Below are positions 28,159 to 63,156 of a stretch of 64,000 nucleotides of DNA, piece after piece. The DNA is from a virus. The first letter of the stretch is position 1; each line of letters starts with the position of its first letter. The stretch spans positions 1 through 64,000 of IMG/VR virus record IMGVR_UViG_3300032307_000646. One strand, given 5' to 3'. The notes under the pieces were generated by a model that was not told where the DNA came from, searched no databases, and was given only the letters and a program-made list of their open reading frames with translations. A program made the position numbers and the translations under genes.

Positions 28159-29457
28159 TTATAGGCCAATGATGGATTTCATTCTCTGGATTGTCTCATT
28201 AAGTTGCATATCTTCTTTTGCCTTCTTGTTGTAGTCTCTGGCAATTCCTTTGTTTGTGTCTATGCATTCCTCTGGTGACATCTCATCCAGTTGTTCCAGT
28301 GTGAAGAATTTCTTCCCTGTATGTTCTTTCTTATCCAACTTAATATTCTCCGTGTCAAATTCGTTTGTATAGAATACGTTTAATTGAACATCATCCAATT
28401 CGTATGTCTTTAATTTCTTGAAGGATCCCAGTTCAACCCCCGCTTCTTCTTTGATCTCTCTTCTCAATGCTTCCTCTGGGGTCTCACCTTTCTCAATGTG
28501 ACCGCCAAGCATTCCGTACTTGCCAGGGTTTGTTGTTTCCTCTGGGCTTCTCTTAAATAACAATACCTTATTGTCGATCACGATGAACAACAATGCTATT
28601 CTCTTTTTTTCTTTTCCTTCCGCTTCATTCATAATATCGTAAGACTCTTCTTTTGTCTTTCCCCATTTCTTTCCTTTCCCTGGTGTTCCGCAAGATGCTG
28701 GCGTTGGTCTGCATGAAGGGTACTTTGATCTCTCTTCACCAGCTTGTCTTCCGCAGGCCTTGCATTTCTTTTTGCCATCGGTTTTTCTGCATGTGTTGCA
28801 ATCAACCCATCCTTTGCTTCCGCCACCACCTCTTCTTGAGAACCATCCGTGCAATCCGTCTTTTTTCTCCTTTGAGTAGTCGGTCTTCTTCGCTTCATCG
28901 ATATCATCGTCAAAATCTGGATCATAGTTAGGATCCTCTTTACCCACTCTACTCCATTTCTTTTTCTGTATGAAAGGGTCGTTTTTCAATGCGTGTGGTG
29001 TACCATAATGATTTTTCGCGTTATCTTTGAATTCGATATAGTCTGGGTCGTCCAACAAATCCGTTTGAAATTGTTGTCTTGCCGTGGAAATTTCTTCGTT
29101 TTGTTGACCATCCAAATACTCATCCACCCATGCTTGCAATTCGTGAACGTCTGGAGCGTAGTCCTTTCCTTTTCTTCTTGTGATTGCGTCATGCGCTTTG
29201 TATATGAGTTCCTTAACATCATCTGGCGCGTCATTAATATCTTCTTCCTTAAGATCCTTCCAGATCTTTCCTCTTCTGCACTGAACAATGGCACCTGATC
29301 TGTATGCTGATGGTTTGTCGTATTTTCTTCTTGCTATTCTAAGACAACGGTCCGCTTTCTTTTCTTTCTCGTTGATGGCGTCAAAAGACTCCACAACAAG
29401 ATCATCATTGATCAAGCCCATCACTTCCACAAGTCTGTTTAAATTTAATTCATCCAT
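28159..29457 (-). CDS. Possible internal start of the fusion gene
   Basis: Within the fusion gene, ATG at 29457 opens MDELNLNRLVEVMGLINDD, which resembles the N-terminal peptide of other virion-region proteins, and lies 6 nt after TATTTATAAATA. A shorter product lacking the acetyltransferase (432 aa) is therefore plausible, or two ancestral genes have fused. The reading frame is continuous. Confidence 0.45.
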   Translation of the reverse strand: MDELNLNRLVEVMGLINDDLVVESFDAINEKEKKADRCLRIARRKYDKPSAYRSGAIVQCRRGKIWKDLKEEDINDAPDDVKELIYKAHDAITRRKGKDYAPDVHELQAWVDEYLDGQQNEEISTARQQFQTDLLDDPDYIEFKDNAKNHYGTPHALKNDPFIQKKKWSRVGKEDPNYDPDFDDDIDEAKKTDYSKEKKDGLHGWFSRRGGGGSKGWVDCNTCRKTDGKKKCKACGRQAGEERSKYPSCRPTPASCGTPGKGKKWGKTKEESYDIMNEAEGKEKKRIALLFIVIDNKVLLFKRSPEETTNPGKYGMLGGHIEKGETPEEALRREIKEEAGVELGSFKKLKTYELDDVQLNVFYTNEFDTENIKLDKKEHTGKKFFTLEQLDEMSPEECIDTNKGIARDYNKKAKEDMQLNETIQRMKSIIGL

Positions 29458-29814
29458 GTTATTTATAAATATATTGTTTTCGTTCAAACCTCTCGGAGAT
29501 CTGTACATATCTTCCCTGTGTGAGAAATCCCTGTTCTGTCCTTTGTTCTCTATGAACCCGAATCCTTTGTAGAAGCTTCTTAATCTTGTCACATTGCCAC
29601 CGTAACTGCTTGATGGTGTGAGAGTTATGGTCCACCCATTGTCGTCCGCGATCTTTGTCAAATCTTCCATGAAAGATGAGCCAACACCTTGTCCCCTCAT
29701 TGTGTAAGGTACGATGAACCCAGTAAGGTAAACTCTCTTTGCCTTATCATTCGGGTATAGCTCAAATCTTATGTCTGGATACTTCTGATCCAGTACGTCA
29801 AAAGGACTGCTCAT
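28159..29814 (-). CDS. GNAT acetyltransferase - Cys-rich - Nudix fusion protein
   Basis: A 551-aa multidomain protein. Residues 1-110 resemble a GNAT acetyltransferase (RGQGVGSSFMEDLTKIA acetyl-CoA loop; FYKGFGF). A middle region near 310-390 has HGWFSRRGGGGSKGWVDCN and further Cys (KCKACGRQAGEE, YPSCRPT), a module seen in phage proteins. Residues about 405-535 form a Nudix hydrolase with GGHIEKGETPEEALRREI then KEEAGVE (complete Nudix box). It ends NETIQRMKSIIGL, the C-terminal form of a peptide shared by virion-region proteins. A nested start at 29457 may give a 432-aa product. Overlaps the upstream gene by 17 nt. Confidence 0.8.
   Translation of the reverse strand: MSSPFDVLDQKYPDIRFELYPNDKAKRVYLTGFIVPYTMRGQGVGSSFMEDLTKIADDNGWTITLTPSSSYGGNVTRLRSFYKGFGFIENKGQNRDFSHREDMYRSPRGLNENNIFINNMDELNLNRLVEVMGLINDDLVVESFDAINEKEKKADRCLRIARRKYDKPSAYRSGAIVQCRRGKIWKDLKEEDINDAPDDVKELIYKAHDAITRRKGKDYAPDVHELQAWVDEYLDGQQNEEISTARQQFQTDLLDDPDYIEFKDNAKNHYGTPHALKNDPFIQKKKWSRVGKEDPNYDPDFDDDIDEAKKTDYSKEKKDGLHGWFSRRGGGGSKGWVDCNTCRKTDGKKKCKACGRQAGEERSKYPSCRPTPASCGTPGKGKKWGKTKEESYDIMNEAEGKEKKRIALLFIVIDNKVLLFKRSPEETTNPGKYGMLGGHIEKGETPEEALRREIKEEAGVELGSFKKLKTYELDDVQLNVFYTNEFDTENIKLDKKEHTGKKFFTLEQLDEMSPEECIDTNKGIARDYNKKAKEDMQLNETIQRMKSIIGL
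29464..29471 (-). promoter_or_regulatory. Late-type TATTTATA box inside a gene
   Basis: Minus-strand TATTTATA, 6 nt before the internal ATG at 29457. Confidence 0.35.
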
Positions 29815-31105: not shown

Positions 31106-31525
31106 ATGGAAAAAAATGTATTAAATGAAGTTAACAAGATCCGTAAGATGATGGGTCTTAATGAGAGCAGCAACGGTGAAATGGGGTATAACCCAAGTCC
31201 ACTTGGTGAGGCTAATGGCTCTGATAGCGTTGGTATTATCACAAGCAATGGTAAATTAATGGCTGGTTACTTCCAGGAGTTTGGTTTAGTTTCAGCTGGT
31301 GACACCATTCTATTCGATAACGAAGGCAAGTTGGTTAAAAAGGGTGGTGGTTATCCATCAAGCGGTTTTAAAAACCACGAGGACACCAAAGAACTTGAAA
31401 AAGATATTTGCAATAACTACGAGGAGATATTGGATATCTTCAGACAAAGTGCCCCAAAAGTGGTTAACCTTAATGAGGGTTATAACGTAATAAAAAAAGC
31501 TGTTGAATGCGATTTAGTTTATTAA
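31106..31525 (+). CDS. Virion-region protein with MMGLNE leader peptide
   Basis: A 139-aa protein starting EKNVLNEVNKIRKMMGLNES, the shared N-terminal peptide of this region, followed by a flexible Ser/Asn/Gly stretch and a small mixed domain (SNGKLMAGYFQEFGLVSAGD). The peptide ends LNE, which fits a T4-type prohead-protease site (LxE); this suggests cleavage on capsid maturation. First gene of the tail-fibre operon. Confidence 0.7.
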   Translation: MEKNVLNEVNKIRKMMGLNESSNGEMGYNPSPLGEANGSDSVGIITSNGKLMAGYFQEFGLVSAGDTILFDNEGKLVKKGGGYPSSGFKNHEDTKELEKDICNNYEEILDIFRQSAPKVVNLNEGYNVIKKAVECDLVY

Positions 31526-31526
31526 T

Positions 31527-31925
31527 ATGAAATCAACAAAAGTAACCGTAAGAGCGAATGGTGGTACCTGGATGGTAAACGCCAATGGTTCGGATTATAA
31601 ACAAATAGGTGGAAGCGAAACTTTCACATACACCGATTCCAAATCTAGCGATGTGGATGTTGCTGGTGAATTTTATAACGATAACATCGTTATCCAATTT
31701 GAAATGAACAATCCATGGATCGGTTCACCATGGGCCGCGGTTGGTCAAGCAATGGGTGACAGCGGTTGGGATAATGATAGAACGAGTATGGATGAGGGTG
31801 ACTCACATGTATTCTCCACAACCATATACAACGATGATGATGAGTACACCTTTAAAACAAGGGTGTTAAGGTTATCAGATACAGATACGAAAAACTTCGA
31901 GGTTTGGCCTGGATGGTACGAATAA
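31527..31925 (+). CDS. Hypothetical beta-rich 132-aa protein
   Basis: All-beta composition, rich in Ser, Asp and aromatic residues (FEMNNPWIGSPWAAVGQAMG; EDGDSH-like MDEGDSHVFSTTIYNDDD). A small lectin-like or structural domain is possible. One base after the upstream stop and 21 nt before the first tail-fibre gene. Confidence 0.65.
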   Translation: MKSTKVTVRANGGTWMVNANGSDYKQIGGSETFTYTDSKSSDVDVAGEFYNDNIVIQFEMNNPWIGSPWAAVGQAMGDSGWDNDRTSMDEGDSHVFSTTIYNDDDEYTFKTRVLRLSDTDTKNFEVWPGWYE

Positions 31926-31946
31926 AATTATAATTTTTTATCCATC

Positions 31947-33050
31947 ATGTCAAGACGTCCGATAGCATTTAATAACTCAACAAAAACCAACAATTCTATC
32001 AAAAAAAATAAGATAGAGATTGGTGTGGCGTCAGATAATTACGCGAACAACCCAGGTGGGTTAACCTGGTTTAACGGACCAGATTCAACAAATCAATATG
32101 TAATATACTCTGACACATATAGCCTCGGTATGAGTACGTTGGCGAATTCTAAACCAGTTTGTTGGGGTAGCGGCGACATGACCGATGCTAATGTGCTTAG
32201 AATGATTAACGGGTTACCAACAAGGAATAACCAGGCACCGTTTACAACTATCGCATCGGCTTTAAGTTGGGTCGCGTCCAGTTCTGTTTTTAATGTTGTT
32301 TCTGGGGTTTTACCCGACATTGTAACCAACGGGTTAATCCTAAATTTAGATGCCACACAAAAAGCTTCATACCCAGGGTCTGGTACAACTTGGTACGATC
32401 TGAGTGGACAAGATAATAACGCGACTATTAATACCGCAAATTATAATGCTTCTGGTTACTTTACATCAGTGGTTTCACCAGGTTACGCTTCCTTATTAGA
32501 ATTCACAACACAAATCACGGGTAGCTTGGCCACAGCTTTATCCGTAACCTCTGGTGGGTGGTCAATAGAGGAATGGGTGCTTACTAATGATACCACATAC
32601 CCAGAAGCTGCCGCTGGTAGCGTTGTTTCTAATAGTGGTTACGGTGCTGGTGAAATAGGGTTTGACTGGAATCACGGTCAAACTGGGATGTCGCAATTTC
32701 AAATGGGTGCTAGCTGGAATGTTGGTCAACCCGCCACTTACGATGTTAGGGGGTACATAACATTAAACGCCTCGTTTAGTAACTACGGATCATGGTATCT
32801 TAGACATATGTTTTGGAATCGAGACACCGCTAAAATGGGCGTGTATTACAATGGGGTTTTTCAAGGTGATATTAATATGTCGGTTTTAAACGGTTACCCT
32901 ATTTGTGATGGGGGTGTAATATCATGGGGGCAACTATATGGTTGGAGACATGATGGGGCGAGAGCTGGTATGAAGGTGTATAACAGAGTATTATCCGCTA
33001 GTGAGGTTTTACAAAACTTTAACGCACAAAAATCAAGATTCGGTTATTAA
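31947..33050 (+). CDS. Tail-fibre/adhesin, LamG domain
   Basis: A 367-aa protein. Residues 1-115 form the shared N-terminal domain (MSRRPIAFNNSTKTNN, WFNGPDSTNQYVIYSD, VCWGSGDM). Residues about 125-367 form a LamG/concanavalin-like domain (LNLDATQKASYPGSGTTWYD, ending NFNAQKSRFGY). Such domains bind surface glycans. Its neighbour at 33062 has a nearly identical N-terminus but a different C-terminal sequence, so the pair look like alternative receptor-binding proteins. Confidence 0.8.
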   Translation: MSRRPIAFNNSTKTNNSIKKNKIEIGVASDNYANNPGGLTWFNGPDSTNQYVIYSDTYSLGMSTLANSKPVCWGSGDMTDANVLRMINGLPTRNNQAPFTTIASALSWVASSSVFNVVSGVLPDIVTNGLILNLDATQKASYPGSGTTWYDLSGQDNNATINTANYNASGYFTSVVSPGYASLLEFTTQITGSLATALSVTSGGWSIEEWVLTNDTTYPEAAAGSVVSNSGYGAGEIGFDWNHGQTGMSQFQMGASWNVGQPATYDVRGYITLNASFSNYGSWYLRHMFWNRDTAKMGVYYNGVFQGDINMSVLNGYPICDGGVISWGQLYGWRHDGARAGMKVYNRVLSASEVLQNFNAQKSRFGY

Positions 33051-33061
33051 AAATATAGGTT

Positions 33062-34081
33062 ATGTCAAGACGTCCAATAGCATTTAACAATTCCAGTAAA
33101 AGCAACAACTCCATTAAAAAAAATAAAGTGGAGATAGGGCTTGCAACTGATAACTACGCCAGCAATCCAGGTGGGTTGACTTGGTTTAACGGCCCAGATT
33201 CCACTAACCAGTATGTGATTTATTCAGATACCTATAGCTTAGGTATGACAACACTAGCAAACGCTAAACCAGTTTGTTGGGGTAGTGGTGATATGAGTGA
33301 CGCGAACATACTTAGAATGATAAACGGGTTACCAACAAGGAATAACCAAGCACCGTTTACAACCATAGCCTCAGCATTAAGCTGGGTAGCATCTAGTTCT
33401 GTTTTTAATGTTGTTAGCGGAGCTCTGGATAATATCGTAACAAATGGGCTGGTTATTAATCTGGACGCCTCACAAAAAGCATCATACCCAGGATCTGGTA
33501 ACACCTGGTATAATTTAGCTGGTAGTGAAAACGGGACAATTATAAACGGTACAACATACGGGAGTTCAAATAATGGTATCATAACATTTGATGGTGTTGA
33601 TGACGCTGTTGAAATATATGGTTATAACTGGTCGCATACACAAGTTACGGTATGCGCTTTTATAAAACCAGCAACCGATTGCCCTTCTGGTGATAACAAT
33701 ATCGTGACAATTGAAAATAGTTTTGAGTATCGATATAATAACCGTGGTGATGGGACCGCAAGCGTATGGTACGCATCAAATCCATGGGCTTGGTTTGGTT
33801 CTGGTACGATAACTTTAGGTCAGTGGCAAATGGTTACGTTTAGACACAACACAACAACAAACATAGGTGATATATGGGCTAATGGTTCACAAATATTTTC
33901 ACAAGCGATAAACGGTGGTATCGCAACAAGAACTGATAATATAAAAATAATGGGGAGATATTGTTGTGCTGGTAGTCCAGCTAAAGGTGATTTAGGTGCT
34001 ATTTTGATCTATAATAGACCTTTAAGTAATAGCGAAATAATACAAAACTTTAACGCCTTAAAAACAAAATACGGATTATGA
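33062..34081 (+). CDS. Tail-fibre/adhesin, LamG domain
   Basis: A 339-aa paralogue of the gene upstream: the first 115 residues are almost the same while the LamG domain differs (LDASQKASYPGSGNTWYNL, ending NFNALKTKYGL). Synonymous sites in the shared part have diverged, so the duplication is not recent. Overlaps the next gene by ATGA. Confidence 0.8.
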   Translation: MSRRPIAFNNSSKSNNSIKKNKVEIGLATDNYASNPGGLTWFNGPDSTNQYVIYSDTYSLGMTTLANAKPVCWGSGDMSDANILRMINGLPTRNNQAPFTTIASALSWVASSSVFNVVSGALDNIVTNGLVINLDASQKASYPGSGNTWYNLAGSENGTIINGTTYGSSNNGIITFDGVDDAVEIYGYNWSHTQVTVCAFIKPATDCPSGDNNIVTIENSFEYRYNNRGDGTASVWYASNPWAWFGSGTITLGQWQMVTFRHNTTTNIGDIWANGSQIFSQAINGGIATRTDNIKIMGRYCCAGSPAKGDLGAILIYNRPLSNSEIIQNFNALKTKYGL

Positions 34082-34323
34082 TGAAATATTTAATAATCAA
34101 CGCTTCGGAAATTAATTTAATTGACTTTGAAACGATACAACAAACGTCAGCTGAAAAACTTAGGAAATCAATAGACGGTCAAAAAACTGTTGTAAAATGG
34201 TTAGGTGCTACGCCTGAGTGGGTGAACAATTTAACAGTTAAAGAAGGCCCTTACAATGAGAGTGAAATATTGGTGATAATGGCCACACCATATTGGTGGT
34301 TTGTTGATGGTGGTGAGGAGTAA
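34078..34323 (+). CDS. Hypothetical 81-aa protein
   Basis: Small soluble protein (MMKYLIINASEINLIDFETI...; ends PYWWFVDGGEE), overlapping the adhesin gene by ATGA. By position it could be a fibre-assembly chaperone, but no motif supports that. Confidence 0.6.
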   Translation: MMKYLIINASEINLIDFETIQQTSAEKLRKSIDGQKTVVKWLGATPEWVNNLTVKEGPYNESEILVIMATPYWWFVDGGEE

Positions 34324-34363
34324 AAATTATTACCATAAAAGGTGTTTTATATAACCTTTATGA

Positions 34364-34371
34364 TATTTATA
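34364..34371 (+). promoter_or_regulatory. Late-type TATTTATA box
   Basis: GATATTTATATA, 20 nt before the ATG at 34392. Confidence 0.5.
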
Positions 34372-34391
34372 TAAGTAAAACATATTAAAGA

Positions 34392-35204
34392 ATGAAAAAA
34401 CCCCTATTAAACGAAGAGATCACTAGAATCCGTAAGATTATGGGCCTTAATGAAAGTGAAGAATTGGATTTATCTAAAATGGATAACCCAAACGCTTATA
34501 CCGATGATATCATTAATCATAACGCTGAAAAAGAATACGTTGATTTTGAAAAGGATTATGATTTCGACTTTGAGAAAGCTGCAATAGAATCCGCTTCTGG
34601 TGAAGAAGTTGTACAAAGAGAATTTGACGATTATGACAGACCACTATATTATAGTGTTAAGGACGATAACGTACACTACTTTATTGGTGATGGGGATAAT
34701 GGTCCTATGATTGTTAAGTATAACGCTGAGACTGGTGAGAGATACCCTATTGGTGACCTAAGAGATTATGACGCACCTGAACTTTCTGAAGGTGATGACG
34801 AAACTGAAGGCCCGATTGCAATATACAAAATGTACAAAAAAGGTGAAGTAAGTCAAAAAGATCTTAACGCTTTAATGGGTATTTGGGATAGAGCTGATAA
34901 AGAGAAATTGATGGCTTATATAAGATCACAAAAAGAAGAAGGTATTAACGAAATAGATGAATCGGAAATTTCTGAAGGTTCTATGGAAAGCGGCGTGTAC
35001 TACGATACAACAGTTGCACACGAAATAAAAAGCAAAGTAGGTAATCTACATAAAATAGCACCTTATGTTCTTGAGATAGGTGATAGAGTTATTGAAGACA
35101 TTTCTGGTAAAATATCAGTATATGACGGCGGTAACTTAGTTGAGAAGTTTAACGATGTTGATGCTTTCTTAATTGGAATAAAATACGGGGCAACACCAGT
35201 TTAA
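34392..35204 (+). CDS. Virion-region protein with IMGLNE leader peptide
   Basis: A 270-aa acidic protein starting KKPLLNEEITRIRKIMGLNE, the clearest copy of the shared peptide. The body is highly charged and repetitive in character (FEKDYDFDFEKAAIES; DEIDESEISEG region) with no recognised domain. Probably a capsid- or virion-associated protein, by peptide and location. Confidence 0.7.
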   Translation: MKKPLLNEEITRIRKIMGLNESEELDLSKMDNPNAYTDDIINHNAEKEYVDFEKDYDFDFEKAAIESASGEEVVQREFDDYDRPLYYSVKDDNVHYFIGDGDNGPMIVKYNAETGERYPIGDLRDYDAPELSEGDDETEGPIAIYKMYKKGEVSQKDLNALMGIWDRADKEKLMAYIRSQKEEGINEIDESEISEGSMESGVYYDTTVAHEIKSKVGNLHKIAPYVLEIGDRVIEDISGKISVYDGGNLVEKFNDVDAFLIGIKYGATPV

Positions 35205-35205
35205 T

Positions 35206-36126
35206 ATGAGTAGAAAACCAACATTAACTGAAGAGTTATTTAGAATCCATGAGATGATGGGTCTGACTGAAAACCAGTTGGATATGTTTGCTGGTACAGA
35301 GGACGCGGCGCCAGAAGAGAGTGCTGAAGATTCCCATATCGGTAAAAGAGTCATGGTTTATTATAACCTTCATAAAAAAACTTTCTCAATACAATATAAA
35401 GGTCTTGTGATCGCTCATGCTGACTATGTTAAACTTAATAACGTTGAGTTTAGAGTTAGACAAGGTGGTATGGAAAAAGTTAGGGCTGAGATGTCAAAGA
35501 ATGTTCATGCGTTCGTTATTGGCGATTTAGTTGATTTCATTGCTTACCCATCAACTGATATACCATCAGCAACTAGTTCAAAATCAATAACATACGATCC
35601 ATATAAATACGATACATTTGTTTACAGAGACACAGAGGAACCTGTAACCAATGCTCGTGAGGTTGAAATGATCAACCAACCAGGTGGGAAAATTTTCCAG
35701 ATAAATGAAGTTCTTTCAGAAAACTGGTCTTATGATGACAATAAGATAAATCAATTCGTTGTTGAGGCGGAAAAGGATGTGCAAATGGCTGATAACCTAA
35801 TTAATAAATTTGGTGTTAACGTTGTTAACATGACGTTAAAAGATATTCACGATAACATAGCACAAATGGAGTCCGCAAAAGAAAAATTAGAGGCTAGTAA
35901 AGACTATATCACCCGTAAATACGAAAAGTTTTATGATATCGTTGAGACTTACGAGGTTGGGGAATACCCCGATAACGTTTCTAAATTATATGATTTATCG
36001 AACAAATTAGACAACCAAAAGGAATCTTTATCAGATCTAGCCGAAACATTTAATACATTAATTGATGCAGCTAAATGGTTGGGAAAATACAATAAAGAAA
36101 TTTTCGATATACAGAACATAAAATGA
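35206..36126 (+). CDS. Virion-region protein with MMGLTE leader peptide and coiled coil
   Basis: A 306-aa protein starting SRKPTLTEELFRIHEMMGLT. A beta-like middle (HKKTFSIQYKGLVIAHADYV) is followed by a long C-terminal coiled coil from about residue 185 (DVQMADNLINKFG ... IAQMESAKEKLEAS). One base after the upstream stop; overlaps the next gene by ATGA. Confidence 0.7.
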   Translation: MSRKPTLTEELFRIHEMMGLTENQLDMFAGTEDAAPEESAEDSHIGKRVMVYYNLHKKTFSIQYKGLVIAHADYVKLNNVEFRVRQGGMEKVRAEMSKNVHAFVIGDLVDFIAYPSTDIPSATSSKSITYDPYKYDTFVYRDTEEPVTNAREVEMINQPGGKIFQINEVLSENWSYDDNKINQFVVEAEKDVQMADNLINKFGVNVVNMTLKDIHDNIAQMESAKEKLEASKDYITRKYEKFYDIVETYEVGEYPDNVSKLYDLSNKLDNQKESLSDLAETFNTLIDAAKWLGKYNKEIFDIQNIK

Positions 36127-37388
36127 ACAAACCAACAGCAGTAAACTACACAGGTACACAAACGCCTTATGGTACTAAACACGACAACATTGAGATCGGG
36201 GATGCTTCGATTGATTACAGAGATAACGACAGTGGGTTAGTATGGTATAATTCACCAGAGACTACTGGTAAATATATAATATTTTCAGCCGCAAATGATA
36301 ACGGTTATATGACAGCCACACCATTATTTTGGGTTTGTGATCAGACTGATAGTGAGTTGTTAAGGTTGGTGAACGGTTTACCAAATAGACGCGGTGAGAC
36401 ACCTTTTACTACAGCTATACAAGCAACCGACTGGTTAAATTCTGAAACTAATTACTATTTATTAACTGGTGAAGGTGGTGGTGGAAACCCAACTGGGTTT
36501 ACAATCACTATAACACAATCTGGTAGTGATGTTGTTGTGAATGCTTCTGGTACACTTAATCTAGCTGATTTAAATTATATCGGTCAATCACAAGGTATGG
36601 GACCTGGTGGGCTCGGCGGACCAACATCAACATTCATAATCGGTGGCAGCCTTGGTTATTTTGATCAATATACTGGATCAACATTTAACACACCAGCGTC
36701 CTTTGGTATGTTCAGTGGACCAGCCAATTCTGGTTCTGGTGATACGGTTGGTGTTATTATGAATGGGCAACCACCATATATATTAGCTGTTCCGACAGGT
36801 TACACATCTAACCAAAGTATAACAAGTACAATGACATTTACAAACACAAGTATAGCGACAATGGGGTTAACCGAAGGTACGTTTACATATACTTGGGGAA
36901 CTGGTGGAAACGCTGATGCGATAAATATGGTTATTGGTGGAACTAGCGGTACATCTGGTACTTCAGGCACTGGTGGAACTGGTGGCGGAGCTGGATGGTT
37001 CTTCTATAGTGATGAGGGATCTTTAAATGCTGGTCCACCGTCAAGTAATGGTAATGCCATATTTGTTGATAATAGTGGTATGGGTGGTAACACCGAAACC
37101 TTTAACCCGAATAAAGTTAACGGAAGAACACTTTATTTCCACCAATACGATAGTACTGGGGTGGATTACGCAACACAATTTGCCGCTTTACAAACTAATG
37201 GTGGAACATTAAGTATTACACAAAATGGGCAAACAGCGACATATACAACAGCCAACCCTAATATGTTTGTGTATACCGCTTTATCTGGTAACAACAGTTT
37301 GTTGGTTAATACGGGTATGTTAACACAAACCTCAACAACGGTTAATCCATTTGTTTACGGTGACCCAATAACACTTTCATTTAGTTAA
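36123..37388 (+). CDS. Tail-fibre/adhesin with GTSG repeats
   Basis: A 421-aa member of the paralogous fibre set. Residues 1-115 match the shared N-terminal domain (IEIGDASIDYRDNDSGLVWY; LLRLVNGLPNRRGETPFTTA). A beta-rich middle follows, then a collagen-like stretch GTSGTSGTSGTGGTGGG near residue 280, and a C-terminal beta domain. GTSG repeats are common in phage fibres of aquatic phages. Confidence 0.75.
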   Translation: MNKPTAVNYTGTQTPYGTKHDNIEIGDASIDYRDNDSGLVWYNSPETTGKYIIFSAANDNGYMTATPLFWVCDQTDSELLRLVNGLPNRRGETPFTTAIQATDWLNSETNYYLLTGEGGGGNPTGFTITITQSGSDVVVNASGTLNLADLNYIGQSQGMGPGGLGGPTSTFIIGGSLGYFDQYTGSTFNTPASFGMFSGPANSGSGDTVGVIMNGQPPYILAVPTGYTSNQSITSTMTFTNTSIATMGLTEGTFTYTWGTGGNADAINMVIGGTSGTSGTSGTGGTGGGAGWFFYSDEGSLNAGPPSSNGNAIFVDNSGMGGNTETFNPNKVNGRTLYFHQYDSTGVDYATQFAALQTNGGTLSITQNGQTATYTTANPNMFVYTALSGNNSLLVNTGMLTQTSTTVNPFVYGDPITLSFS

Positions 37389-37406
37389 AAAAAATATTAA
37401 TATATC

Positions 37407-38258
37407 ATGGCAACAGCAAGACCTTACGCATATAACCCAGGGGCACCGATATCTGGGACACAACAAGTCGGTGATTTGGCAATCGGAACACCCGATTCTG
37501 GTTTCACAAATAACCCACAATTTTGGAACGGGCCTGACGAGGAGTTGGGTTATGTAATAGCATTACCAGTTCCAGATAATAGTCAACCAACACCAATACC
37601 TGGTGTAACAGCTTCCGTTCGTTTTCTGAGATCTGGGGCTTTAACAGAAGAATCATTTGTTGGTTTAGTTAACACACAATTCAATCAGAATCATCAAAAC
37701 GCTTTTGATGCTAAAGATTGGCTAACCGCACAGGGATATTTCAGTACTTTTTCAGCTTTTGGAAGTTCTGGATTCCAATGGATGACAATGACTGAGATTA
37801 ACGAAAGTGATGCACATGGAATAGGACAAAATAACATCACAATTAATATTGCACAATCAGGTGGTGGTATGGCTATTGAGCCTGGTATGTATAGTGCAGA
37901 CACATTCCCTGAAGAATATGGTGTACCTATTGTTGGCGACCAAATTCAAAACAGCCAGGATGGTATATTTACCGCAACATTTAGTCAACCTGTGACAGAT
38001 CCTTTGGTCGCGTTTGCGAGTGTTGGTAATCCAAGTCTATATGTCCCAGTTATTGTTTCAGCACCATTCACACCAATTTGGGGTCAAGATACAACATACC
38101 AAAACCCATCTGGATTAACCCAATACACACAGTTTACTGGTAACGAAGGGTTTAATATTATCCGTATAGATGGTACTCACACGTCAATTAGTTTTAACTA
38201 CACTGTTGCTGAGTACTACAGTACAATTTGTTTTGGTTTTGTTGATCAGAACCCTTAA
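37407..38258 (+). CDS. Tail-fibre/adhesin paralogue
   Basis: A 283-aa protein. The N-terminal 115 residues are a diverged copy of the shared domain (VGDLAIGTPDSGFTNNPQFW; FVGLVNTQFNQNHQNAFDAK). The rest is a beta-sandwich-like domain (GIFTATFSQPVTDPLVAFAS) without a LamG signature. Confidence 0.7.
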   Translation: MATARPYAYNPGAPISGTQQVGDLAIGTPDSGFTNNPQFWNGPDEELGYVIALPVPDNSQPTPIPGVTASVRFLRSGALTEESFVGLVNTQFNQNHQNAFDAKDWLTAQGYFSTFSAFGSSGFQWMTMTEINESDAHGIGQNNITINIAQSGGGMAIEPGMYSADTFPEEYGVPIVGDQIQNSQDGIFTATFSQPVTDPLVAFASVGNPSLYVPVIVSAPFTPIWGQDTTYQNPSGLTQYTQFTGNEGFNIIRIDGTHTSISFNYTVAEYYSTICFGFVDQNP

Positions 38259-38268
38259 TTATTTTTAA

Positions 38269-39327
38269 ATGGTATATAACGCTATATATAACGCTGGACC
38301 AGCAATAGGTGGTACAACTCAGGTTGGTAATATTGCCGTTGCAACTGGTACACCAGATTACGCTGTCGGTGATTGGGTTGGTGGTGTTGATGACACTGGG
38401 TGTTATGTTATCATTAGTGAGACAACAAACACTGGTTTAGCTGGTAGATCAGCTGGTGGTAGTTCGGAAATAATTCCAGCGGAAACCCCAGTTTTTTGGC
38501 GAACAACAAGTAATACTGACCAAGCCTTTCTTGATTTGGTTAATGTTTTACCAGGTTCACCTGGTACTATAACCGATGTTGGGGTGGCGACAGACTGGTT
38601 AGCGGGTCATAATTTTTGGACATCGTATGGAACAGCTCTGGCGGTCACAGCACAGATATATTTTGATCCAGCTAATACGTTATCTTACCCTGGTAGCGGT
38701 AACACTTTAACCAATATTGGTACATTGGGTAACATTACTGGTACATTGGGGAATATGTCGGGTGTTGTTTACGATAGTAACGCTGGTGGTGGATCCCTTA
38801 ACTTTGACGGTGGTTCGGATACGATACAGTTCGGGCAATTCAATTTTGGTAATAGTATATCTGTTAGCGCTTGGGTTTATCCGAGAAATGAGGCTAGTAT
38901 AAACTGTTTAGTTTCTAACTGTGGTGCAAACACGGCGACAAATGGTTTTAAAATGGCTTGGAATAACTGGACAACTGTAAATTTAACCATGAACTTTGAA
39001 GCGGGTAATGGTGGCGCTGGCGGTACTCAGTCAACGGCTAATAATACAGTTACTGAGAACGCTTGGCAAATGTTAACTTATGTTTTTGATAAAACAAACC
39101 AAACAATACGTTTCTATAAAAATGGGGTTGCTATTCCTACTAATAACGGTGGATCACCAGTTGCTAATATAGGTACAAACAACTCAAATTGGTGGATTGG
39201 TTCCATTGGCGGTAGTTCATACCAGATGGACGCTAATTTGGGTGAATTTAAGGTTTGGATGAGTTTAATGTCTGACGGGGATGTGTCAGCTGAATTTGAC
39301 GCGACTAAAGCTAGATACGGTTTGTAA
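38269..39327 (+). CDS. Tail-fibre/adhesin, LamG domain
   Basis: A 352-aa protein with a diverged shared N-terminus (VGNIAVATGTPDYAVGDWV) and a LamG-like C-terminal domain (YFDPANTLSYPGSGNTL; NSISVSAWVYPRNE; ending FDATKARYGL). Last of five fibre paralogues. Its stop lies 2 nt from the stop of the convergent gene. Confidence 0.75.
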   Translation: MVYNAIYNAGPAIGGTTQVGNIAVATGTPDYAVGDWVGGVDDTGCYVIISETTNTGLAGRSAGGSSEIIPAETPVFWRTTSNTDQAFLDLVNVLPGSPGTITDVGVATDWLAGHNFWTSYGTALAVTAQIYFDPANTLSYPGSGNTLTNIGTLGNITGTLGNMSGVVYDSNAGGGSLNFDGGSDTIQFGQFNFGNSISVSAWVYPRNEASINCLVSNCGANTATNGFKMAWNNWTTVNLTMNFEAGNGGAGGTQSTANNTVTENAWQMLTYVFDKTNQTIRFYKNGVAIPTNNGGSPVANIGTNNSNWWIGSIGGSSYQMDANLGEFKVWMSLMSDGDVSAEFDATKARYGL

Positions 39328-39329
39328 TA

Positions 39330-39839
39330 TTACTGAGGTTTTTCAGAATCTTTGATGATTAACTCACCCAAAACTTCCATCTTACCAAGGAGTTCCTGGA
39401 AAGCTATTTGTTCAATATCCATATCATTTTTTGTTGATGAATAAAGTTTTTCAAGAAGATCTTTATATTCTTTTTTAGCATCTTCCATATCTAAGTCACC
39501 CTTAGCAGCTTTTTCGTAATATTCTAACTTAACCTCGAAGTGATGGTAAGTTAATAATGCCGCGCCACCTTTTTCTTTTGCGTTGTCGGCAATTTTTTCG
39601 GCACCACCTAATCTTGTCTCAGCAAATGATTCGAGTTTATCACCCTCTTCTAAAGGATTACCTGGGCCCCTAGTTATATTGGATTGCCATGTTGTGTTAC
39701 CAACTGGATTACCTGGACCTCTTTTAACACCAGAATCCCATAGAGATCCAGTTGAAGTTGACGTTGATGAGGTTGAGGTTGAATCCTCATTCAATCCCAT
39801 CATCGTTCTTATTTTTAATATTTCCTCAAGGTATGTCAT
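39330..39839 (-). CDS. Virion-region protein with MMGLNE leader peptide
   Basis: A 169-aa protein starting MTYLEEILKIRTMMGLNEDS, then a Ser/Thr stretch, an internal repeat (RGPGNPVGNTTWQSN and RGPGNPLEEG), and a helical C-terminal half (HFEVKLEYYEKAAKGDLDME). Predicted to be cleaved after LNE if a T4-type prohead protease acts on it. Overlaps the membrane-protein gene upstream. Confidence 0.65.
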   Translation of the reverse strand: MTYLEEILKIRTMMGLNEDSTSTSSTSTSTGSLWDSGVKRGPGNPVGNTTWQSNITRGPGNPLEEGDKLESFAETRLGGAEKIADNAKEKGGAALLTYHHFEVKLEYYEKAAKGDLDMEDAKKEYKDLLEKLYSSTKNDMDIEQIAFQELLGKMEVLGELIIKDSEKPQ

Positions 39840-40101
39840 GATTGTTGCGTTTATCCTCTTCGTGTTTATAGTTATAATGGTTACATTCTATGTCAATGAA
39901 TTCATCGTCTTCGGTTGAAGCTTTGTAACTCGTATACATTATAAATAACACAAATTCAAAAAATAAGGTGTAGATTACTGGGTGCCAATCCAAAGGATTA
40001 ACTTTACCTATTATTAATAGTAGAATACCGTATATGAAACCACACTGGAATAACACTAAAACCAAAAAAGGTATAACAGTTAATCTAATAAAATCCTTCA
40101 T
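39826..40101 (-). CDS. Two-span membrane protein
   Basis: A 91-aa protein with two hydrophobic spans (about 6-31 and 42-57) and an acidic/His-rich tail (DDEFIDIECNHYNYKHEEDK). Its start overlaps the stop of the leader-peptide gene upstream by 1 nt, and its end overlaps the gene downstream. Function unknown. Confidence 0.65.
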   Translation of the reverse strand: MKDFIRLTVIPFLVLVLFQCGFIYGILLLIIGKVNPLDWHPVIYTLFFEFVLFIMYTSYKASTEDDEFIDIECNHYNYKHEEDKRNNHDIP

Positions 40102-41000
40102 TACATTATATAGTTAGTTAATTCATATTTACCAGAAGGCATTCTGTATAATGAAATTTGTAACATTTTTTTAAGCGGTTTACCATCTTTTAATAACTCA
40201 ACATGGTACTGAACAGTTTTTTCATAAGCAACATGTTCTGGGGTGATACTTTCCCAGTTAACCGTAAAACCTTTATGGTTAGCGTATTCTTCGGCAGATT
40301 CTAAAGCACCAGCTTGTGTATCAAAATAATTTTCTTGTTGGAATCCTCTACCTTCGAAAACTTTACCATCTTTACCAGCTCTCATAGCCATCCAAGAACC
40401 TTCCTCTTCTTCAAGCTCTTTTTGAAGTTCGTCCAGACTTTCTAATTTAAGATCACCCAAAGCGTCCATTGTGTCGTCATAACCAGGCATTTTATAATCT
40501 GGTTCTTCTTCTGGTTCTCCGAACATATCATCAATTAGTGATTGGGCCATTGATTTTAAATCAATTTTATTATTACCACGACCCATATTCCAAACACTCC
40601 CTAAAGCGTTCTCAAGGTAATCAACCCTATTATCGGAGCCAACCTTCGCATCTTCCATAGCAAGATCCCAAGATTCCTCAACGTCTTCATTTTTCTCAAA
40701 AGTTTCTGGGTCTCTATCTTGTTTATTAGCGGTTGCGTAATAAACCTCTTCACCCTTTTTATCACCGTATTGGTCTTTGAATTTATTAAGAACTTCAGTG
40801 TTCTCATCAGTTTCCTCTTCTCTCATTGAACCAACAATATCCGATGGAGATAACTCTTCTATCGCGTCTTTACCGTAATTGATTTCATAATCATCATCCT
40901 CTGGGGACATGTTTGTAATTTTACCGCTTGGGCTAACATGATTTACACCCATCATTTCTTGTATTCTAGAAAGTTCTTCGTTTAAACTGGATTTTTTCAT
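40101..41000 (-). CDS. Virion-region protein with MMGVN leader peptide
   Basis: A 299-aa acidic protein starting KKSSLNEELSRIQEMMGVNH. Long acidic segment (DDYEINYGKDAIEELSPSD; EPEEEPDYKMPGYDD), then a C-terminal domain (ESAEEYANHKGFTVNWESIT). First gene of a three-gene leftward operon with a late-type box 13 nt upstream. Confidence 0.7.
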   Translation of the reverse strand: MKKSSLNEELSRIQEMMGVNHVSPSGKITNMSPEDDDYEINYGKDAIEELSPSDIVGSMREEETDENTEVLNKFKDQYGDKKGEEVYYATANKQDRDPETFEKNEDVEESWDLAMEDAKVGSDNRVDYLENALGSVWNMGRGNNKIDLKSMAQSLIDDMFGEPEEEPDYKMPGYDDTMDALGDLKLESLDELQKELEEEEGSWMAMRAGKDGKVFEGRGFQQENYFDTQAGALESAEEYANHKGFTVNWESITPEHVAYEKTVQYHVELLKDGKPLKKMLQISLYRMPSGKYELTNYIM

Positions 41001-55003: not shown

Positions 55004-55639
55004 ATGAGCATGAAAGAAGATTTTACACCAGAAGTTAACGATGTCATCGTAGGAAAAATTGGTGAGCTTAAAAAAATACAAGCCCAGTTAGATGAAGCGT
55101 TAAAACTCTATAAGGAGTCAATAGCTGATCTAGAAGCGGCTAAAGCTAGTTTAGTACCAGAAGTGATGGAAGCTTTTAAAGGCCAAAAAGATGGTGCTGA
55201 GAAATTAAAGTTTGAATTGGATAACATGGTTGTTGAAATCGTTCAGGAATCTGAGAGATTAACAACATCTTATAAAGACGCTTTTGATACAGCTTTAACT
55301 AAAGTGAACGAGAACACTAAGAAAGTTTTACAACAAATTTTAGAGAGTTCTAAAGTTGCTTCTAAAGTTAAAGGTCAATTAAAAATCGATAGCACAAAAG
55401 TTTACGAAGGCGCTATGATGGATTGGCTTGGTTCTGTAAAGGATTGGTTAACCACAGCTTTCAATAAAGTTAATGTCTTCTCAAGTAGAGCCGAAGAAGG
55501 TCTAGATGAAATCAGCGCCATGATTAAAAATTATGACGAAGAGCAAGAAAATATGTACGCTAGTAAAAACATGGATGATGTTGAGTCTGGGGCTATTTAC
55601 GAATCTATTGATAGAATGAAAAAAATAATAAATTTTTAA
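55004..55639 (+). CDS. Coiled-coil protein with C-terminal shared peptide
   Basis: A 211-aa protein, mostly coiled coil in the first 130 residues (GKIGELKKIQAQLDEALKLY). It ends YESIDRMKKIINF, like the end of the Nudix fusion protein (NETIQRMKSIIGL). The tag suggests a common virion or assembly destination. No family recognised. Confidence 0.65.
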   Translation: MSMKEDFTPEVNDVIVGKIGELKKIQAQLDEALKLYKESIADLEAAKASLVPEVMEAFKGQKDGAEKLKFELDNMVVEIVQESERLTTSYKDAFDTALTKVNENTKKVLQQILESSKVASKVKGQLKIDSTKVYEGAMMDWLGSVKDWLTTAFNKVNVFSSRAEEGLDEISAMIKNYDEEQENMYASKNMDDVESGAIYESIDRMKKIINF

Positions 55640-58011: not shown

Positions 58012-58707
58012 ATGGGTAAGAAAGTTTATAAAATGACTGAAGATCAAGTTGCTTCTGTTTTGAACAGAAAGAAAGAGGGTGTTATCGCTGATATGCCAGC
58101 ACCAGGTTTAAAACTAAGTAATGAGGGGTCAGATAAGAAAACAAAATATAAAATCACTGAGGACCAACTAAAAAGAATCTTTAATGAGTTAGGTAAAAAA
58201 GCTGTTGATGAGATGGATAACTACAACTATCCAATGGGTTCCGATACACCTGACGCGCCATGGAATCAAAATGATGATAATATTAAACAAGGTGAATCTG
58301 TTGGTGGTGACTACGTTGGTGTTTTTACCGCTCAAGGTGAATTCTTATTGAAGAATAAACAAACTAATGAGTTGCTTTATAGTTTAACTGATGTCTGGTA
58401 TGATATATATGCTGAATTAGAAGACTATTTAGATGTTCCACAAGAAGAAGAAGAGGACGAGGATGGTAGATATATGACAGCGGCTAGCGACTGGAAAGAT
58501 CATATCACAAATGATGAGTTATTAGAAGCTTTGGCTAGTTACATTAATGACAAGGCTAAAAGAAATCAGGATTTAAAAATCACCGATACTATCGAGTCAT
58601 GGGATAATGCTGAACATGAGTTTTTATTAGTTAAGCCAGAAACTATCGAAGCGATAGGGTCAAAACCAGTTGTTGAAAAAGCAAAAGCTCTGCTTGGTTT
58701 AAATTAA
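58012..58707 (+). CDS. Virion-region protein with repeated TEDQ motif
   Basis: A 231-aa acidic protein with the same short motif twice near the N-terminus: YKMTEDQVASVLNRKKEG and YKITEDQLKRIFNELG. ITExQLxxIxxE motifs are common at the ends of marine-phage virion proteins and may be processing or targeting peptides. The rest is acidic with no recognised domain. Its stop overlaps the stop of the convergent ParB-like gene. Confidence 0.65.
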   Translation: MGKKVYKMTEDQVASVLNRKKEGVIADMPAPGLKLSNEGSDKKTKYKITEDQLKRIFNELGKKAVDEMDNYNYPMGSDTPDAPWNQNDDNIKQGESVGGDYVGVFTAQGEFLLKNKQTNELLYSLTDVWYDIYAELEDYLDVPQEEEEDEDGRYMTAASDWKDHITNDELLEALASYINDKAKRNQDLKITDTIESWDNAEHEFLLVKPETIEAIGSKPVVEKAKALLGLN

Positions 58708-62412: not shown

Positions 62413-63156
62413 TCAATATTGCTCGTTTTCTAAAGATAAAAACTCATCTTTTATATCAACCCCAAGATCTGCTAATTCATCCATATACCCAGATCTTCTT
62501 AGGTATTTAAAAACTAGATTTTCTGTACTATATTCACCAGTTGCATTTAAACCACTTTTTCTGTAAGCTCTTATTTTTTCTTTTAGTTTTTTTAGCTTAA
62601 GTAATTTAGCGTCTGGTTCTTCTTCTTTTTTAATGTCGTTTAGTTTTTTTACAAACTCCTTAACCTTTTTAATGATATCAGATTTATTAACTGGCGCTTT
62701 ATCTTTACTAGGTTCTCTTCTCCATTTATTGTAGAGTATGCTATATATACCGTCAGAAGCGTCTAACTCTTCTTTAATATCTTGAACGTATAACTCAACA
62801 TCAAAACCCTTAACCTTTATATTATGTTTTAAGTTATAAACTTCCTTTTTAGCTGTAAAAAACTCATCAACTAAATCAGTATCTTCATTAACCTTTTCTT
62901 TGTCAATTACGATATGTAAATCCACGTCTGAATATTCGGACCAATTATAATTAGCTAAACTACCAACAAATAAGATATCTTCAATAACAAAACTGTCTAT
63001 ACCAAAACTTTCAATAAAATCTTTCGCTATTGAGATGAGGTGTTCCCTAACATCTTTGTGTAATTTGATTGTCTTAAAGTTATCTGATGAGGCATTATCC
63101 CATATATCCGAATATAGGCTTGCTCTAACAGTAAAACTTTTAATAATATTGTCCAT
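62413..63156 (-). CDS. Nucleotidyltransferase-fold protein
   Basis: A 247-aa protein with GSLANYNWSEYSDVDLHIVI at about 65-84, the hG[GS]x(9-13)DhDh active-site pattern of the polymerase-beta-like nucleotidyltransferases, and a later Asp in VKGFDVELYVQD as the probable third carboxylate. The C-terminal half is Lys-rich and helical. It may transfer a nucleotide to a tRNA, protein or antibiotic-like target; the substrate is unknown. Confidence 0.8.
   Translation of the reverse strand: MDNIIKSFTVRASLYSDIWDNASSDNFKTIKLHKDVREHLISIAKDFIESFGIDSFVIEDILFVGSLANYNWSEYSDVDLHIVIDKEKVNEDTDLVDEFFTAKKEVYNLKHNIKVKGFDVELYVQDIKEELDASDGIYSILYNKWRREPSKDKAPVNKSDIIKKVKEFVKKLNDIKKEEEPDAKLLKLKKLKEKIRAYRKSGLNATGEYSTENLVFKYLRRSGYMDELADLGVDIKDEFLSLENEQY

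Follow-up and report, generated by a model that had tools for sequence, protein, structure and literature searches.

The window analysed here comprises bases 1-64000 of IMGVR_UViG_3300032307_000646, a 73,368-base IMG/VR contig that is a fragment of a jumbo phage. Five of its proteins open with variants of one short peptide, two carry a mirror form of this peptide at their extreme C-terminus, and one internal copy lies at a gene-fusion junction (Table 1). The six variants noticed in the first-pass annotation, at 31106, 34392, 35206, 39839 (-), 41000 (-) and the internal start 29457 (-), are all in place; the protein starting at 41000 (-) opens with MKKSSLNEELSRIQEMMGVNH and the internal methionine at 29457 (-) reads MDELNLNRLVEVMGLIND. 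The two C-terminal copies come in addition to these. AlphaFold2 models of the 35206 and 40101 proteins were poor overall (mean predicted local distance difference test, pLDDT, 54 and 53), and what we used from them is the helix at the N-terminus with the low-confidence stretch behind it: residues 7-17 form a helix in the 35206 protein, followed by low confidence up to residue 44, and residues 6-16 do so in the 40101 protein, again with a low-confidence stretch after. When the 40101 model was compared with viral folds, the matches were weak and in part spurious; the top one is a phage protein of 1,134 amino acids (aa) that bears the name anti-CBASS Acb1 (E 1.7e-4, superposition poor).

Table 1. 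Copies of the terminal peptide and predicted cut sites in the window (↓, predicted cut).
Feature	Sequence	Position (strand)	Protein or location	Remarks
N-terminal tag	MEKNVLNEVNKIRKMMGLNE↓	31106..31165 (+)	139-aa protein 31106-31525	same-tag homologues in L003, L009
N-terminal tag	MKKPLLNEEITRIRKIMGLNE↓	34392..34454 (+)	270-aa protein 34392-35204	body parts recur behind other tags in L004/L011
N-terminal tag	MSRKPTLTEELFRIHEMMGLTE↓	35206..35271 (+)	306-aa protein 35206-36126	Phage_L5_gp82 domain and helical domain
N-terminal tag	MTYLEEILKIRTMMGLNE↓	39786..39839 (-)	169-aa protein 39330-39839	
N-terminal tag	MKKSSLNEELSRIQEMMGV	40944..41000 (-)	299-aa protein 40101-41000	without (L/I)xE ending
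C-terminal tag	LNE↓TIQRMKSIIGL (LNETIQRMKSIIGL), chain end	28162..28203 (-)	551-aa protein 28159-29814	
C-terminal tag	YESIDRMKKIINF, chain end	55598..55636 (+)	211-aa helical protein 55004-55639	
Internal tag	MDELNLNRLVEVMGLINDDLVVESFDAINE↓	29368..29457 (-)	former N-terminus of second gene	now fused in frame
Predicted cut site	GLNE↓	29479..29490 (-)	end of GNAT domain	
Predicted cut site	MNE↓A	28624..28632 (-)	polyprotein, ahead of its Nudix domain	
Predicted internal cut site	LSE↓N	35713..35721 (+)	junction of the two domains in the 35206 protein	
Second tag class, tentative	KKVYKMTEDQ..., TKYKITEDQLKRIFNE↓L	58012..58707 (+)	near N-terminus	resembles MKIIITESQYKRLLNE↓-type N-termini of relatives

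Starting from relatives of the 40101 protein and from DNA-pattern matches in IMG/VR, we gathered 16 contigs (at most 304 kb) and took stretches of 12 of them; positions were counted over 3,127 predicted genes in 13 contigs. The core pattern of the peptide stands at 46 N-termini, with about one expected from its internal rate (15 occurrences in 571,000 internal residues), and at 19 C-termini, with 0.7 expected, both counts being slightly inflated because one contig (G013) nearly repeats part of another (G005) and G016 resembles G001. Motif-profile matches across the relatives begin almost always at residue 1. The description of the carriers as otherwise unrelated proteins is borne out, since about 70 mutually unrelated bodies carry the peptide in 12 related contigs and a forced alignment of 70 tagged proteins yields the consensus MNLxExIxRIxxxMG alone, with none beyond it. 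The last approximately 30 aa of the 55004-55639 protein are found again in L324/L330, on a protein unrelated to it. In IMG/VR, 36 stretches matched the DNA pattern for RIxxMMGLNE, and those bearing the motif have it in N-terminal position. Among 84,980 prokaryote genomes the same pattern gave nine stretches, none with the terminal tag architecture, and four or five of these are one internal SIPLMMGLNE stretch. A tblastn search of INPHARED phages with tag peptides of 20-22 aa returned nothing at E<=10, queries so short possibly falling below BLAST reporting, and absence from isolates is therefore not claimed. None of six tag strings was found in the open-access literature (one library searched).

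The first-pass annotation had pointed out that the LNE ending of the peptide fits the rule of the T4 prohead protease gp21, which cleaves after L/I-X-E (PMC9026906). The first tag profile, a hidden Markov model, included this ending and was circular for a cut-site test, and the test was therefore repeated with a core-only pattern and on N-termini chosen up to MM, that is, selected on MNLQExIxRIxxMM alone, regardless of the residues beyond. In 103 distinct N-termini of this kind, [LIVM]xE ends three to six residues past MM in 90%; over 54 unrelated families, [LIV]xE falls within 8 aa in 50 (93%), compared with a background of 10% for windows of eight residues in these proteins. Among the 50 families, 47 have I or L at position P3; P2 is free, with N preferred. 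The core-only pattern gave 240 matches against 49 in shuffles, and LxE 67% against 20%. The position of LxE slides, lying three, seven, eight or nine residues after the core, and where the spacing is longer by one residue (GVINE or GLLTE in place of GLNE) the added residue is hydrophobic, so that the rule is preserved at P3. Shorter forms of the tag (MNLQEHIRRVLRE↓E) share the ending. In the C-terminal tags a trailing [LIV]xE occurs in none of 19 and a leading one in 19 of 19, the latter having been required by the search pattern. The ending of the tags follows the (L/I)xE rule of the T4 prohead protease; the window copy at 40101-41000 lacks it.

Further classes of tag share this logic. A second N-terminal class, MKKVIRLTESDLTRIVKRVINE↓, was found in 50 proteins (median 132 aa) of seven genomes, G002, G004, G009 and G010 among them, with E at fixed spacing in 49 of 50, P3 occupied by I, L or V in 49 of 50, and a variable P2; it was not found in G000, G003, G005 or G015. 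Orthologues of the 39330 protein start differently, with MKLFDVILE↓A and MKFLEILEE↓S (G005/G003), which are reminiscent of MKTYQEFIAE↓A, the capsid-targeting sequence (CTS) of T4. In untagged genes of the relatives, [LI]xE with E at residues 8-11 is enriched about twofold, which suggests additional short T4-like targeting peptides.

Fused proteins retain [LI]xE exactly at their domain junctions. In L027 and L010, the C-terminal domain of the 35206-36126 protein has a gene of its own, which is tagged and has its (L/I)xE at the matching point, and the two-domain versions join at LNE↓EGISYDPSKIDEF (L004, L027), LSE↓NWSYD (window) or LKE↓GIEYS (L010). In the protein at 28159-29814 (-), a single chain unites a GNAT, a DUF5872-like and a Nudix domain; the GNAT and Nudix parts are two genes in G015: there the stand-alone GNAT protein ends in GLNE↓NLKRLKEIIDSNF at its stop codon and the second gene starts with the N-terminal tag MEQKDLNRLVEVMGLINDD...DVINE↓E. 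The in-frame fusion of the window still contains GLNE as well as the second tag with its AINE, and probably arose through the former intergenic leader, the old start codon at 29457 being kept. At the junction before Nudix, the window MNE↓A corresponds to SLNE↓A in G005 and MMNE↓A in G015, and in L011 the same GNAT domain with LNE is joined to a different partner. The G005 orthologue of the 55004-55639 protein has a longer C-terminal part, and its tag is still last (KLNE↓AINRFKKIINYI at the chain end).

The relatives carry the enzyme and the substrate that such a system would need. Matches to Peptidase_S77 (Pfam model; 68.9-88.5 bits, cut-off 27) and to Gp23 co-occur in eight of the 16 contigs, all eight at least 128 kb long. 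In seven of seven relatives checked, the gp21-type protease keeps the T4 motifs E-L-(N/D)-H-P and SSRG with the conserved His and Ser; in the capsid precursor, (L/I)NE↓A aligns with LTE↓A, T4's own cut position, and the tags end in this same tripeptide. The gp22 position, flanked by the protease and capsid genes, is taken by a gene whose acidic product is a putative scaffold, without any match in Pfam or PHROG. In all seven relatives this product ends in L(N/I/S)E↓[ST]xxYxNPQxxRM[KLR]D[LI][MI] plus a few residues, and a core pattern derived from the tags recovers 28 C-termini, with one expected, all seven scaffolds among them. An unrelated 169-aa protein of G005, 236869-237375 (-) (L085:16866-17375), has a C-terminus that copies the scaffold tail almost verbatim, LNE↓S included. 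The similarity between tag core and tail of the gp22-like scaffold is short and suggests scaffold mimicry. The window contig is collinear with G005 (59 genes in common, mean identity 57%), and the window phage presumably has the same T4-like head, with its protease and capsid protein.

We consider it highly probable that the peptide is a capsid-targeting tag, docked in the scaffold core and cut after (L/I)xE, whose cargo would be kept in the virion and presumably injected. The tag would be a short amphipathic helix with the core I-x-R-[IM]-x-x-[MIL]-[MI]-G, placed at the N-terminus of the cargo or, as a mirror form, at its C-terminus. During prohead assembly it would attach the cargo to the scaffold core, the docking site probably being that of the scaffold's own C-terminal tail, a site proposed because the tag core matches this tail and because of the G005 copy. 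The gp21-type protease would then cut at the border between tag and cargo, freeing the cargo in the maturing head and removing the tag, and the cargo would stay beside the DNA, presumably to be injected and to act early in infection. We infer docking, cleavage, encapsidation and injection from the modular, terminal peptide on unrelated bodies, the (L/I)xE border at variable spacing, the T4-type protease and capsid sites of the relatives and the cut sites at domain junctions, which together support the idea of a modular capsid-targeting tag raised in the first-pass annotation. The C-terminal form, the other tag classes and the resemblance to the scaffold tail go beyond that annotation.

Several points weigh against this interpretation. 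The window contig stops before the head module, inside a giant collagen-like gene whose G005 counterpart is separated from the capsid gene by about 7 kb, and the head of the window phage is for that reason deduced from its relative. Two tagged contigs (208 and 214 kb) have no protease match; they share tagged genes with protease-bearing contigs and may be incomplete. The 40101-41000 family is tagged without a cut site, the (L/I)xE ending being absent from nearly all homologues (a distant one in L334 reads MMGINE). Helix periodicity could partly account for the spacing of (L/I)xE, and neither an isolate nor virion proteomics was found for these uncultured phages in the open-access literature.

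The amphipathic character of the helix, and the position of the window copies near genes of LamG-like and collagen-like surface proteins, would also suit a docking helix for tail, baseplate, membrane or replication compartment, in which the trailing LxE is merely part of the helix pattern. We regard this as improbable, since LxE slides relative to the core while E is kept and P2 is free, persists at domain junctions without a helix, and accompanies a core that matches the scaffold tail. Still less probable is the spread, by common descent or recombination, of a shared 5' cassette (ribosome-binding site and first codons) without a targeting role: tagged genes do stand side by side in several genomes, but in pairwise comparison of tag DNA the third codon positions are the most variable (55% identity, against 89% at second positions), and conservation therefore acts on the peptide and not on the DNA; moreover, the tag is found at C-termini too and several sequence classes have one common ending. 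A role of the peptide in controlled degradation, or as the adaptor site of a phage-encoded Clp-type ATPase, would be in keeping with the terminal placement and with the large ClpB/ClpA-like gene nearby (contig 64653-67343), but it seems the most remote of the three, as it leaves the (L/I)xE rule, the junction sites and the scaffold tail unexplained and would mean degrading tens of proteins per phage. A nucleus-import tag was judged unlikely on general knowledge, the heads being T4-like and not phiKZ-like (chimallin was not searched for).

On sequence evidence, the proposed capsid-targeting tag would be part of a T4-style targeting and processing system with a tag sequence of its own, at either chain end and on tens of proteins per phage. 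The CTS of T4 likewise stands as a short peptide at the N-terminus of head proteins that are otherwise unrelated (IPI, IPII, IPIII, Alt) and ends in (L/I)xE for gp21, and the predicted cargo here, like the T4 cargo, includes an ADP-ribosyltransferase; a 10-residue CTS and a C-terminal cleavage of Alt are described (PMC9026906). The tag differs in being a helix of about 18-22 aa (7-10 aa in T4 IPII/IPIII/Alt), in occurring also at C-termini, in its predicted tens of cargos per phage (four in T4) and in its resemblance to the scaffold C-terminus. Direct reading of T4 N-termini revealed no clear homology to the CTS MKTYQEFIAE and a general likeness only (gp24 MAKINELLRE↓S compared with MNLQESIRRILRE↓E), such homology not being strictly defining, as T4 Alt differs too. 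In phage P1, the N-terminal 30 aa of DarB are enough to bring a reporter into the head (PMC9024508), again an N-terminal capsid signal, but the Dar proteins are without a consensus, whereas here a single one recurs on many proteins. In the jumbo phages phiKZ and SPN3US, many proteins inside the head carry propeptides that are removed by cleavage after xxE (PMC5694885, PMC10052503); those propeptides are mostly longer than 100 aa and have another cut motif, and the head here is T4-like (gp21/gp23). Polyvalent phage proteins (Iyer et al., 2017; PMC5512222), which are probably injected multidomain effectors, also combine ADP-ribosyltransferase and GNAT domains, unlike the present chains in that the latter have predicted prohead-protease sites between fused domains and terminal tags. 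The phages studied here probably belong to the same wide group as the bS21-encoding Bacteroidetes jumbo phages, which reach 331 kb and in which a single block holds the genes for terminase, portal, prohead protease and capsid (Chen et al., 2022; PMC9723584); the passages found there mention neither tags nor head cargo, and by this likeness the host would be a member of the Bacteroidota.

Other genes near the end of the contig are a giant collagen-like open reading frame with a GTSG-type repeat at 67430-73366 (L002 7430-13366; G005 counterpart 139610-155557, 5,316 aa), the ClpB/ClpA-like AAA ATPase gene (L002 4653-7346), conserved in G003, G004, G005 and G015, and, at 62413-63156 (-) in the window, a protein whose relatives occur in Lak megaphages, Maribacter phage Molly and cyanophages.

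Pfam and PHROG scans gave no known family for most tagged proteins. T4 Alt is the classic packaged ADP-ribosyltransferase, and an ADP-ribosyltransferase-like tagged protein of G015 has its domain from residue 31, directly behind the tag (below the curated cut-off); the P-loop kinase-like domain also starts after the tag. PAP2, Nudix and GNAT domains were likewise recognized, as were thioredoxin, pterin dehydratase, DUF2237 and ParB_N among 70 tagged proteins scanned. The C-terminal tags, the predicted tens of cargos per phage and the apparent likeness of the tag core to the gp22-like scaffold tail are new here. From them we put forward, more tentatively and at somewhat less than even weight, that each tag is a portable version of the scaffold's C-terminal docking tail, by which cargo may enter from either end through scaffold mimicry, and that tens of proteins may be packed per phage, some of them made as polyproteins for the head protease to cut, an injected repertoire far larger than the four of T4. 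Such mimicry, if true, would suggest a binding partner of the capsid-targeting sequence, which is left open for T4 in the literature consulted. With tag and cut site, the head content and probable injected set of uncultured jumbo phages may be readable from sequence, and the cargo found (ADP-ribosyltransferase, acetyltransferase, Nudix, P-loop kinase-like and many unknown proteins) constitutes candidate early effectors and anti-defence proteins.

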